A DNA stretch of 64,000 nucleotides from an uncultured Desulfobacterales bacterium (GTDB taxonomy: Bacteria; Desulfobacterota; Desulfobacteria; Desulfobacterales; JAHEIW01): assembly GCA_947259495.1 (NCBI GenBank), contig CAMYLV010000003.1, positions 1 to 64,000 on the forward strand, in the 5' to 3' direction. The position numbers and the translations under genes are program-made. Every line of letters begins with the position of its first letter. The stretch's first letter is position 1. Below the pieces are notes generated by a model. The model was not told the DNA's origin. It worked only from the letters and a program-made list of their open reading frames with translations, and did no database searches. Below are positions 47,604 through 61,975 of this stretch, one piece after another.

Positions 47604-47987
47604 AAAATGTTTGTAAAGCCGATTGCCTTCCAGTCGATATCGATAATGATCCTGCCGTGATCACCAGCCCAAAAGCACATGGTATGTGTCCGGGGGTGAC
47701 CCCTGAGGTGGGAAGCCTCCCCAAAACCTTTCATCATATTCACTCTGTGCCATATTCGGTCTGACCTGCCGAGCCGCTCTAAAAATAAAATGCCTGTCCA
47801 ACTGACGACTGAGCTGCACTGTGCCTGGTTTGACATATGAAAATAATATTATTACCATTTGAAATAGCCTGCCCGAGACGGACAAGCGAATCTTCAATTT
47901 GGGCTTATGCTTAAATTGGGTATGAATGAAAGTCTGAGTAACCAATGTTGATTGTAATTTATGGTTAATAAAAAGGAGATGACCTGC

Positions 47988-48824
47988 ATGCCGCATCCGA
48001 AACACGCCATGGAGATTTTTCAGCTGCTCGACAAGTCCAACTGCCGGGAGTGCGGTGAAAAAACATGCCTGGCATTTGCCGGAGCCGTTTTCCAGGGCAA
48101 GCGCAAGATCGCGGAATGCCCGAAGCTGGACCGTGAAACCATTAAACGGTTTTCCGGGGCGCAAGAAGATCCGAATAATGTCTTTGTAGAGGGGGCTGAC
48201 TTTTTGGATGAGCTCAAAAACAAGATCACCGCAGCCGATCTTGCCGCAGCCGCCCAAAGAGTGGGCGCCGATTTTTCGGGCGACAGGCTGACACTCAAAA
48301 TACTGGGCAAGGATTACAGCGTGGATACAGAAGGAAATCTGTCTGCCGACATCCATATCAACCCGTGGGTGGCGGTCCCGTTTCTCACCTACATTTTATA
48401 CGGCAAGGGACTGCCGGTTTCGGGCAACTGGGTTTCGTTTCGGGAGCTGAAAGACGCCAAAGAGCGCTATCCACTTTTTCGAAAACGCTGCGAGGAAGCC
48501 ATGAAGCAGGTGGCCGACACCTACACCGATCTTTTTGACGATCTGGTCCACATTTTTAGTGCAAGGCAGGTGGAAAAACAATTTGAATCAGACATTTCGG
48601 TGGTTTTACACCCGCTGCCCAGAGTACCCATGATGATTTGTTACTGGCAGCCGGAAGATGGGCTTGAATCCAGTCTGAATGTATTTTTTGACGAAACTGC
48701 GGATCAGAACCTCGACGCGGACACGGTTTTCACACTGGGGGTCGGGTTGGCCCAAATGTTCACCAAACTTTCCTTAAGACACGGTTTTGCCGATGTAAAA
48801 AAAGGGACGTCCATGAAATTATAA
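47988..48824 (+). CDS. DUF3786 protein with N-terminal 4Fe-4S (AcsC/CdhE-type) domain
   Basis: A 278-residue protein. The first 45 residues hold LLDKSNCRECGEKTCLAFA and later AECP, the C-x2-C-x4-C..C pattern of the corrinoid-protein/RnfB-type [4Fe-4S] domain. From about residue 95 a DUF3786 domain follows (NPWVAVPFLTYILYGKGLPV, WVSFRELKDAKERYPLFRKR), ending with ADVKKGTSMKL. It may bind or handle a redox cofactor or corrinoid; function is unknown. The ATG at 47988 has AAGGAG 9 bases ahead and is preferred to one at 47961. Its last codons and stop lie in the left inverted repeat of the RAYT element. Confidence 0.78.
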   Translation: MPHPKHAMEIFQLLDKSNCRECGEKTCLAFAGAVFQGKRKIAECPKLDRETIKRFSGAQEDPNNVFVEGADFLDELKNKITAADLAAAAQRVGADFSGDRLTLKILGKDYSVDTEGNLSADIHINPWVAVPFLTYILYGKGLPVSGNWVSFRELKDAKERYPLFRKRCEEAMKQVADTYTDLFDDLVHIFSARQVEKQFESDISVVLHPLPRVPMMICYWQPEDGLESSLNVFFDETADQNLDADTVFTLGVGLAQMFTKLSLRHGFADVKKGTSMKL

Positions 48825-48829
48825 CTTTC
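48804..48829 (+). repeat. Left 26-bp inverted repeat flanking the RAYT gene
   Basis: Begins GGGACGTCCATG and ends ATAACTTTC; it is the exact reverse complement of 49868-49893. It contains the last five sense codons and the TAA stop of the DUF3786 gene. Confidence 0.9.
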
Positions 48830-48860
48830 CTTTCATAGATTATCGTGCTAATATTTATAT

Positions 48861-49868
48861 ATGCCACGCCAAGCGCGCATAGATGCACCGGGAGCGCTGC
48901 AACACATCATCGTCAGAGGCATCGAGCGCAAAAGCATTTTTTTTGATGATAAAGATCGTGATAATTTTGTCGCTCGACTAAGTGTGGTCCTGCCTGAAAG
49001 CACCGCGCGATGCTACGCCTGGGCTTTAATTCCCAATCATTTCCATTTGCTGTTGCGCAGCGGCAATGTACCCATTTCAACGGTCATGCGTCGATTGCTC
49101 ACCGGGTATGCGGTATCGTTTAATCGACGGCATCGCCGCCACGGGCAGTTATTTCAAAATCGCTACAAGTCCATCCTGTGCCAGCAAGATCCATATTTAC
49201 TTGAGCTGGTGCGCTATATTCACCTCAATCCGCTCCGGGCCGGGGTCGTATCCAATTTAGATGAGCTGGGCAAATTTGCATACAGCGGGGACGCTGCCAT
49301 TTTGGGACGCTACCGGCACCCGTTTCAGGATGTCGACACTATCCTGGGCTTGTTTGATAGAAATCTTGCGGCAGCACGTAAAAAGTACAGCGCTTATGTG
49401 CAAAGAGGTATCGACCGCGGGCACCGACCGGAGCTGATTGGTGGTGGACTGATCCGCAGTGCCGGTGGTTGGGCGGCCGTTAAGGGCCTGCGGCGGACGA
49501 ATGCGCGCCTGAAGGGCGATGAACGTATTCTGGGTGACAATAATTTTGTAAATGCCGTTCTGGAAGCCGCTCAGGAACAGCTGGAGCACAAATATCGGCT
49601 CGCTGCCAGGGGGGTTGATTTTGAGAAGGTCGTTCAGCGCGTTGCGGCAGTCTTTGGCATTGAAGTGGAGCAGGTACTGGCCGCCGGTAAACATCCCCCC
49701 ACCGTTAAAGCCCGCAGTGTGCTCTGTTATTGGGCAGTGCGCGAACTGGGGATGAATGGCACGGATATTGCTCAAAAGCTTGGGTGTAGTCAATCGTCAG
49801 TGAGCAAATCGGCAAAGCGAGGCGAGGCGATCGCTTCTGAAAATAACCTGAAACTGATGAAAAGCTAG
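48861..49868 (+). CDS. REP-associated tyrosine transposase (RAYT, Y1/HUH family)
   Basis: A 335-residue single-strand DNA nuclease. The first 150 residues are the Y1_Tnp domain: RGIERKSIFFDDKDR, HUH motif HFH at 60-62 (LIPNHFHLLL), and catalytic Tyr102 in GQLFQNRYKSIL, then YIHLNPLRAGVV. The C-terminal part has a DnaA-like helix-turn-helix (GMNGTDIAQKLGCSQSSVSK), common in long RAYTs. It is flanked by perfect 26-bp inverted repeats that overlap both neighbouring genes. RAYTs move or maintain REP palindromes; whether this one acts on the repeats of this window is unproved. Confidence 0.9.
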   Translation: MPRQARIDAPGALQHIIVRGIERKSIFFDDKDRDNFVARLSVVLPESTARCYAWALIPNHFHLLLRSGNVPISTVMRRLLTGYAVSFNRRHRRHGQLFQNRYKSILCQQDPYLLELVRYIHLNPLRAGVVSNLDELGKFAYSGDAAILGRYRHPFQDVDTILGLFDRNLAAARKKYSAYVQRGIDRGHRPELIGGGLIRSAGGWAAVKGLRRTNARLKGDERILGDNNFVNAVLEAAQEQLEHKYRLAARGVDFEKVVQRVAAVFGIEVEQVLAAGKHPPTVKARSVLCYWAVRELGMNGTDIAQKLGCSQSSVSKSAKRGEAIASENNLKLMKS

Positions 49869-49893
49869 AAAGTTATAATTTCATGGACGTCCC
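49868..49893 (-). repeat. Right 26-bp inverted repeat flanking the RAYT gene
   Basis: Exact reverse complement of 48804-48829. It contains the last base of the RAYT stop codon and the ATG plus next codons of the penicillin-binding gene (ATGGACGTCCC). Confidence 0.9.
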
Positions 49894-51301
49894 TAAACTG
49901 AAAAATTCGAGTTGGCGAGACTATCAGACCAGGCTCCAGCGGGCGCAAAAAAACGACGACCGGAAAAGATTTCTCCGCCGAAATGTTAAATATGTTTTAG
50001 CTTTTATCGTCGGTTGTCTGGCCATATATGGCTTTATTTCCGGGCCTTTCGGGTCTCTGTTCGACGACACCAAAAAGGCGCAGGCCCTTGTGCGCGTTGA
50101 AGATCCAAACGAATCTCAAAAAACGACAGAGGCAGTGTCCTATCACAAAGACGAGGTTCAGCATTTTATTGACAGCCGCCATTTTTCAGATCTGCGTGAC
50201 AGTTCTTTTGAAATCCAAAATAACGGCCGGCGCCTGAGAGTGCAAACCAGCATTGACCCATCGCTTCAAAACTATCTGACCCAAAAATTAGATCGCAAAA
50301 ATTCAAGCCACATCGGAATCGTCGCCATGGACCCGGATGATGGTCGCATTCTATCGCTGGTGGGCTATGACAAAGCCGATCCAGCAAACAACCCCTGCCT
50401 GGACAGCTCTTTTCCGGCGGCCAGCATTTTTAAAATCGTTACCGCGGCGGCGGCGCTCGAAAAAGGTAACCTGCGGCTGGATTCCAGTCTCCAGTATAAC
50501 GGCCGCAAATACACGCTCTATAAATCGCAACTCAAAGAAAAAAGAAACAAATATACCAACACCATTACGTTGAAAGAGGCCTTCGCCAAATCGGTAAATC
50601 CGGTTTTTGGCAAACTGGGGGCGTTGTACCTGGGAAAAACGCAACTGGAATCCTATGCTAAGGCCTTTGGATTCAACCGTGAGATTAATTTTGAAGTTTT
50701 TCTGGCGCCCAGCCAGACCATGATTACGGATGAGCCTTACCAATGGGCTGAGATTGCCTGTGGGTTCAACCGCCAGACGAAGATGTCTCCGGTTCACGGT
50801 GCTTTGATATCGGCCACGATTTTCAACCGGGGAAAATTAATTGAGCCCACCATTGTTGAACGCATCAGCGATGAAAACGGCATTGATCTGTATCAGAGCC
50901 AGCCCGCTGTTGTTGCCCAGGCCTTTGCGCCAGATACCTCGGATGATTTGCGCGAGCTGATGAAAACCACCATTAAATCGGGCACCGTGCGCGGTACGTT
51001 TCGCAAATATCGCAGGGATAAAATCATATCCAGGCTGGAGATCGGCGGCAAAACCGGCACGATCAACAATAAAACCAACGACGTTAAATATGAATGGTTT
51101 GTTGGATATGCACGCGACAGAGACGGTGACGCCAAGATCATTCTTTCGGTGCTGGTGGCCCATCAAAAATACATCGGCATCCGGGCACCCCAGTATGCGA
51201 TCATGGCATTTAAAAAATATTTCAAAACGCAGTTTGCCAAAACGACCCCGCCTTCGTCGGCAAACCCCGGCTGGCGGTCCGAATACGGTCAGACGCATTG
51301 A
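49883..51301 (+). CDS. Penicillin-binding transpeptidase
   Basis: A 472-residue inner-membrane protein with one N-terminal helix (about 33-53, YVLAFIVGCLAIYGFISG) and a transpeptidase domain. SxxK is SIFK near 182 in FPAASIFKIVTAAAALEKG, SxN is SVN near 237, and KTG lies near 390 in IGGKTGTINN. It should cross-link peptidoglycan and bind beta-lactams. No glycosyltransferase domain is present and it is shorter than class B PBPs such as FtsI. Its start codon and first residues MDVP are encoded inside the right inverted repeat of the RAYT element, with no clear ribosome-binding site, so expression may depend on the upstream unit. Confidence 0.85.
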   Translation: MDVPKLKNSSWRDYQTRLQRAQKNDDRKRFLRRNVKYVLAFIVGCLAIYGFISGPFGSLFDDTKKAQALVRVEDPNESQKTTEAVSYHKDEVQHFIDSRHFSDLRDSSFEIQNNGRRLRVQTSIDPSLQNYLTQKLDRKNSSHIGIVAMDPDDGRILSLVGYDKADPANNPCLDSSFPAASIFKIVTAAAALEKGNLRLDSSLQYNGRKYTLYKSQLKEKRNKYTNTITLKEAFAKSVNPVFGKLGALYLGKTQLESYAKAFGFNREINFEVFLAPSQTMITDEPYQWAEIACGFNRQTKMSPVHGALISATIFNRGKLIEPTIVERISDENGIDLYQSQPAVVAQAFAPDTSDDLRELMKTTIKSGTVRGTFRKYRRDKIISRLEIGGKTGTINNKTNDVKYEWFVGYARDRDGDAKIILSVLVAHQKYIGIRAPQYAIMAFKKYFKTQFAKTTPPSSANPGWRSEYGQTH

Positions 51302-51382
51302 TCTGATTACCGCTGAATCCTAAATATGGCATAAGGTGGCTATCTGGAAAGTTCCAGTAGTTTATGTCCGGTAATGATCTCA

Positions 51383-51460
51383 CCACGAAGATCACGAAGA
51401 TCGCAAATGTAGGATGAATAAAATGACACCCCCTCTTCGGGTCCTTCGTGCCCTTCGTGG
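51383..51460. repeat. CACGAAG-word inverted repeat
   Basis: CCACGAAGATCACGAAG on the left faces CTTCGTGCCCTTCGTGG on the right. A single arm of the same kind (ACCACGAAGGGCACAAAGT) lies at 10627-10645. This word palindrome is frequent in Desulfobacterota-type genomes. Confidence 0.6.
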
Positions 51461-61557: not shown

Positions 61558-61975
61558 TTCTTTGTATTTTTCAACTGCAAAGAGTTTCGGGGTTAACCTG
61601 TTTCAGGTAAAAACAGTAATCTTTTACTGTTCGGCACTTAAAGTATAATTTCTTTTTTAGCAGAGTCCAGGGTAGAAGACAATTAAATCCTGTTTTGCAT
61701 GAAAATTAATGAGAGATTTTATTAGCAGCGAGTATAGCGATTTTGGCATTCCAAGTTAAATCAGCCTCCGAAAATAAAGGATACAAATCATTTTATCTCA
61801 TTAATTTTCACCCTACGGGCAAGCCGGAGGCTTCCATCGGTCCGCCTCAGGCGGATTATTAAGGGCGAGGCATAGTAGACTATAGCCTCGCCCTTAAAGG
61901 CCTTGCATATGAAAGCCTCCGACTCGTGCAAAATTCAGTTATTAAAAAACTGTAATTACGCATAATCCCTAAAAA
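61558..61975. other. Structured intergenic region with nested inverted repeats
   Basis: Pairs read by eye: 61702-61714 with 61796-61808 (AAAATTAATGAGA, perfect); 61826-61837 with 61909-61920 (GGAGGCTTyCAT, one mismatch); 61841-61855 hairpin TCCGCC-TCA-GGCGGA; 61861-61895 hairpin AAGGGCGAGGC.. 16 bp with one bulge. No T run follows. It may be a structured RNA, a mobile palindrome or a double terminator. Confidence 0.5.

Follow-up and report, generated by a model that had tools for sequence, protein, structure and literature searches.

What kind of element occupies positions 48803 to 49894 of the window, and why do the genes on either side of it end and begin inside its termini? The window is the whole 64,000-nucleotide stretch of DNA analyzed here, from contig C3 of the 4.44-Mb genome (G000) of an uncultured Desulfobacterales bacterium. 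Open reading frames place three genes at this locus on the plus strand, with Pfam domains that read, left to right, DUF3786 and FeS, Y1_Tnp and Bac_DnaA_C, and Transpeptidase. A repeat search of the window returned a perfect 27-bp inverted repeat, one base pair longer than the exact repeat that the initial annotation had claimed around the transposase gene. The left terminal arm (48803 to 48829, plus strand) consists of a GGGACG core and two 8-bp direct repeats (TGAAATTA and TAACTTTC), and the right arm (49868 to 49894, minus strand) is its perfect reverse complement, with 1038 nt between the two. The 26-mer of the arm has no third site in the window, even at 3 mismatches (shuffle expectation, 0.00), and a chance origin of the arms is excluded by the recurrence of this arrangement at most homologous loci. 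No Rfam family was found within 47900 to 51400, and there was no match in PHROGs.

The initial annotation had assigned the last codons of one neighboring gene and the start of the other to the two arms, and the reading frames bear this out. The DUF3786/FeS gene (47961 to 48824, plus strand) ends within the left arm, where GGG ACG TCC ATG AAA TTA TAA encodes G-T-S-M-K-L-stop. The penicillin-binding (transpeptidase) gene (49883 to 51301, plus strand) takes its start from the right arm, read as ATG GAC GTC CC(T), or M-D-V-P. No other in-frame ATG, GTG, or TTG precedes codon 69, and upstream of this ATG the frame is closed by a stop before any further start is reached.

Between the arms lies the gene for a 335-residue transposase (48861 to 49868, plus strand), with a Y1/HUH domain and a C-terminal helix-turn-helix (HTH) that resembles DnaA domain IV. 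Its catalytic motifs are H60-F-H62 and Y119-x3-N123-P124, and H60, H62, Y119, and N123 are invariant in the 52 homologues that aligned without long gaps. The Y1_Tnp score exceeds the Pfam cutoff; Bac_DnaA_C matches at 26 bits, under its gathering score of 31.5, and a profile search related the C-terminal HTH to DnaA with an E value of 2e-5. Known relatives of this HTH domain are binders of duplex DNA. In the AlphaFold2 model (mean pLDDT, 82.7), residues 1 to 196 match TnpAREP (PDB 4er8; Z 15.2, rmsd 2.8) and residues 252 to 335 match DnaA domain IV (PDB 1j1v; Z 11.8, rmsd 2.0; see also PDB 3pvp), both also supported by Foldseek. As modeled, the protein is a hairpin-type nuclease domain fused to a domain of duplex-DNA-binding kinship, and it is flanked by an arm that, singly, does not fold on itself. 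The closest relatives of the transposase come from metagenome-assembled genomes of Desulfobacterales and other Desulfobacteria, and a search of 72,556 plasmids returned just four distant matches (29 to 39%).

IS200/IS605 elements have unlike subterminal hairpins at their two ends and no terminal inverted repeats. The focal type shares with them (IS608, ISDra2) the Y1 catalytic domain and an apparent lack of target duplication, but it falls outside that family, given its terminal inverted repeats in place of differing subterminal hairpins. Instead, the transposase is a terminal inverted repeat (TIR)-associated tyrosine transposase, a known but little-studied kind, and the focal element is probably a TIRYT/TIRtron, i.e., an autonomous element of ∼1.09 to 1.11 kb with one TIRYT gene between inverted ends. 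As in the elements described by Di Nocera et al. in 2013 (PMC3733652), we found the Y---NP HUH/Y1 signature, a C-terminal Bac_DnaA_C-like HTH, long non-REP terminal inverted repeats at fixed distances with a G-rich beginning, and further copies of the repeat, single or in pairs, at other genomic sites. The core, unlike theirs, is near but not exactly GGGGWSAS (a motif of some TIRYTs, not all), reading AGGGACGT in the focal copy, with a repeat motif of GGGACG(T/C)C, and GGGGACG in most relatives. The C-terminal Bac_DnaA_C/HTH extension puts the focal transposase in subclass 2.1.2 of Quentin et al. 2018 (PMC6006769), for whom subclass 2.1 corresponds to group 1 of the RAYTs in Bertels 2017. Both TIRYT papers (PMC3733652 and PMC6006769) describe low copy numbers without evidence of mobility, and in neither did we find the multi-copy transposition, 8-bp repeats, end stutter, and covariation of arm and HTH reported here.

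Are the repeats the cognate ends of the transposase, as initially suggested? We combined 80 loci from a contig search with those retrieved from 389 searched genomes of the order, in 227 of which there was a match at an E value of ≤1e-20, and obtained 108 usable flanks, a few of which are one locus counted twice. A GGGAYR-anchored pair with at least 18 of 28 matches was present in 82 of the 108, and six further flanks had 22 to 24 of 26 matches with an altered anchor, so that comparable inverted ends, comparably spaced, occur at ∼88/108 homologous loci. Typically, the left core lies 57 nt upstream of the ATG, and the right arm begins at about the stop codon. Positions +7 to +26 are 0.84 identical between the left and right arms of one element and 0.51 between elements, a far better match within than between elements that supports the suggestion.

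The arms share an internal architecture across the family. GGGACG is near-invariant (in part through the choice of anchor) and is followed mostly by Y-C-C, T at +11 (0.98) and +19 (0.86), and TT at +23/24; positions +11 to +26 form two 8-bp direct repeats. Arm identity at a shift of 8 is 0.61, against 0.36 in shuffled arms and 0.23 to 0.46 at other shifts; in a nonredundant set of 23 arms with under 70% identity to one another, the value is 0.56, against 0.352 in shuffles (standard deviation, 0.032). Arm distances correlate with protein distances; at +19 to +26, the HTH region has a partial correlation of 0.34 once Y1 is controlled for, and the Y1 region one of 0.07 once the HTH is controlled for. 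Arm variation therefore appears to track the HTH more than the Y1 domain, as a correlation among related sequences. The resemblance of this domain to DnaA domain IV is one of fold, whereas the arms contain no DnaA-box consensus, and we presume that it has a new specificity, for the 8-bp repeats. This link is a testable proposal for the target of the DnaA-like domain, a question raised in PMC6006769. We also detected tandem units of 7 to 14 bp abutting the core (end stutter) at 16/163 ends, compared with 1/163 control positions and none in shuffles. The longest stutter was observed in G327 (L137, 1 to 700), where the right end is repeated in tandem, in 100-bp, then ∼20-bp and ∼10-bp pieces.

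Two relatives carry elements of this kind in multiple copies. The G049 genome has eleven full-length copies that are 98 to 99% alike, nine of them with an intact ORF. Many copies and pieces lie within 46 kb on one strand only (G049:C1:3849425-3894875; L216 to L218), and others occur at 0.94, 1.03, 1.86, and 2.18 Mb on either strand. Several of those in the cluster are interrupted by 122- to 129-bp inserts with short overlaps, and one truncated copy directly adjoins a full one. In G327, four full-length copies within 40 kb are 99.9 to 100% identical to one reference copy; three compared directly with one another are 99.6 to 99.9% identical, and the fourth is 100% identical to the reference. In these genomes the flanks differ between copies, and homology stops ∼11 bp beyond the core at a second G-run, the edges reading GGGG-N-AGTATA abutting GGGACG on the left and CGTCCC followed by CATACCTGCCCC on the right. 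The outer G-run of these mobile copies is missing from the focal copy, and the combination of near-identical copies, unrelated flanks, and common edges was seen for G049 and G327; the focal element exists as one full copy.

The near-identical copies in relatives are good evidence that such elements really move. As far as the openly accessible literature shows, multi-copy transposition of a TIRYT is new. Class 2 Y1 transposase genes have been described as low in copy number, with poorly conserved copies and no evidence of mobility (PMC6006769), and G049 and G327 are a direct counterexample. Both families offer concrete substrates, with defined ends, intact ORFs, and miniature nonautonomous pairs (MITEs). 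Some insertion sites are G-rich (...GTCTAAGGGA...; the uninterrupted gene is in L180), and for a higA-like insertion in L109 the left boundary in relatives reads ...CCAAAACAGG followed by CAGCGG, with no right boundary recovered. Joined flanks of G049 searched within its genus yielded no clean empty site, with both flanks contiguous, for a full-length copy, and searches for ∼10 other loci against the 389 genomes, with the first 5032 bases of the joined query, returned single flanks only. The absence of an evident target duplication in the flanks of multi-copy elements, like the exact cleavage positions, is accordingly read from homology boundaries. A replication-strand bias was considered and rejected: local GC skew on the strand of the element is positive at most loci, although the trend is weak and confounded by gene strand.

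How the focal copy reached its present setting can be followed in relatives. In G028, from the same genus, the transposase (84%), right arm, and penicillin-binding gene occur in identical order, and the latter gene likewise starts inside the arm (MGVPKI..., compared with MDVPKL... in the window species). Its DUF3786 gene ends natively (...DEARSIK-stop), 3.4 kb before the left arm, across genes that we take from their translated sequences to be amt, glnB, and capA. DUF3786 also has its own stop, without a repeat, in G172 (...SSK-stop) and G125 (...SS-stop); the arm-encoded tail in the window (...KKGTSMKL-stop) thus stands in place of the native ...SIK-stop or ...SSK-stop. In G125, the penicillin-binding gene lies elsewhere with a native start (MLGKRATRFSKIEG...), without transposase and without repeat, and no relative without the transposase was found to have both repeats. 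The comparison with G028 indicates that the right junction predates the species split and that the left junction is derived in the window lineage. No close copy of the 3.4-kb block was found in G000 or G088. The simplest reading of these sequences is a deletion up to the arm in the window lineage; alternatively, G028 may have acquired the block.

Between G000 and G028, dN/dS for the transposase is 0.10 at a dS of 0.91, close to the values for the host genes (0.18 at 0.78 for the penicillin-binding gene and 0.09 at 1.16 for DUF3786), as obtained by a simple counting method with dS near saturation. The arms are identical at 49/52 positions. Based on the low dN/dS and the conserved arms, the focal copy was probably inherited in place and kept by selection; it looks like a long-time resident under purifying selection.

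Ends without a transposase gene are also present. The focal arm recurs in G000 at C5:36524 and C5:38604, on the same strand and 2.08 kb apart, and a variant arm forms a 101-bp element with perfect 25-bp arms (C40:5065-5165) that self-folds into a long hairpin (z, -9.3). Both G000 and G028 contain solo ends and MITEs. The flanks of the C5 solo arms correspond to sequences that lie apart on G028 contig C17, showing that gene order has been altered at the arms, and in G049 an IS3-like gene is cut at one copy, with unrelated sequence across the other side. Element ends may thus promote local rearrangement, which we regard as a lead. One of the solo ends in G028 has its equivalent in G088, and G000 keeps the flanking genes without it; the intergenic stretch has diverged, so no exact footprint is seen in G000.

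Several other explanations were weighed against this evidence. The initial annotation had named the protein a RAYT, whose classical form targets a hairpin that bears a GTAG-like tag within each REP-type repeat. The focal type does share the HUH fold, the Y---NP motif, inverted flanking repeats, and miniature repeat pairs with TnpAREP of Escherichia coli and its REPs or REPINs (PDB 4er8; PMC2817692 and PMC3116915), and the structure closest to it in fold is that of TnpAREP in complex with a REP hairpin. The gene is, nevertheless, not flanked by palindromic REPs with a GTAG tag. A single arm folds at -0.3/-0.8 kcal/mol (z about 0), i.e., into no stable hairpin, GTAG is absent, the score against the RAYT equivalog NF047646 (66.6) is under the curated cutoff of 80, and the protein has an extra HTH domain. 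Furthermore, the full-length element multiplies in relatives, and published classifications assign Bac_DnaA_C proteins that have inverted repeats to a subclass of their own. We therefore consider a classical RAYT very unlikely; the hairpin-less arm, missing GTAG, and subcutoff score largely refute the REP-type reading. Another account, that the near-identical copies of G049 and G327 arose by tandem or segmental duplication rather than transposition, draws on their clustering on a single strand within 46 and 40 kb, respectively, and on the truncated copy that adjoins a full one. It is unlikely, since each copy has different flanks, homology stops at the same element edges, and additional copies lie 1 to 3 Mb away on both strands.

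It had also been proposed that the element repairs the ends of its host genes as a way to insert without damage. Selection to carry gene ends, with stops facing inward and a start facing outward, would make insertion at gene borders harmless, and the pattern holds on both sides of the focal locus and at some others: arms have stops in two inward frames, and CCAT-type arms have an outward ATG. We took a census of the 148 ends with enough flank, using a threshold of at least 120 codons for an open frame. Such frames enter the arm at 15/148 ends, a depletion (10%, against 32% of control positions), and 13 of the 15 terminate there because of the two inward stop frames, giving a neighbor its stop at ∼13/148 ends. 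At just 4/148 ends does a long outward frame find a start codon immediately within the arm; the focal locus and its G028 counterpart account for two of the four, and the outward ATG is not conserved across arms. The proposal is thus highly improbable, the left fusion being lineage specific. Gene-end fusion is real at the focal locus but mostly a by-product, and the locus illustrates how a host gene can come to start or stop in the arm of an element. A domesticated host gene, immobile and kept for a role such as the handling of repeat or single-stranded DNA or the expression of the penicillin-binding gene, is possible though doubtful, and it is compatible with a TIRtron origin of the locus. The single full copy, the conserved arms, and the shared place in two species at a dS of about 0.9 with a dN/dS of 0.10 are consistent with domestication; against it, the solo ends and MITEs point to activity on ends, whether past or still going on, and close members of the family are present in multiple copies.

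For the preferred TIRYT reading, we propose that the HTH of one or two protomers would read the 8-bp repeats as double strand, either in duplex or through pairing of the left and right ends within single-stranded DNA. By analogy with TnpA of IS200/IS605 and with TnpAREP, the Y1 domain may nick one strand near the G-rich core and join it to a G-rich target, and rounds of cutting and joining at both G-runs would generate the short tandem duplications at the ends. At the focal locus, insertion upstream of the penicillin-binding gene would have preceded the species split, with the arm becoming the gene start. Later, in the window lineage, a loss or rearrangement of DNA beside the left end would have extended precisely to the arm, leaving the DUF3786 gene to terminate there, and the focal copy would since have persisted as one gene maintained by purifying selection. 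More generally, and tentatively, TIRYTs may be a separate active class of HUH transposons in which a DnaA-like domain, not a hairpin, guides the Y1 nuclease via paired 8-bp iterons in inverted ends. Insertion beside G-runs would occur without target duplication and leave tandem end stutter, with bursts in some genomes and conserved single genes in others.

Additional observations were made in G000. Of the two solo arms on C5 (region C5:36519-38626; L012, 1520 to 3627), the second provides a stop (K-G-R-P-stop) to a homocysteine-methyltransferase-like gene. On contig C14 (L014, 749 to 1802), a second such transposase (323 aa) has perfect 30-bp arms, AAAGACGGGGTCAAATCTTGAATTGTGAAT, of the GGGGTCA type. 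A third Y1 protein (262 aa; C26; L015, 1082 to 1940), around which no inverted arms were found, is accompanied by 19-nt direct repeats, CCTTAGAAC(T/A)CCCATTTTG, 840 nt apart. Finally, positions 61883 to 61937 of the window hold a dispersed repeat of ∼55 bp containing GCCTTGCATATGAAA; repeats in G000 were counted by pattern searches, and this one has dozens of copies in G000, G028, and G088.
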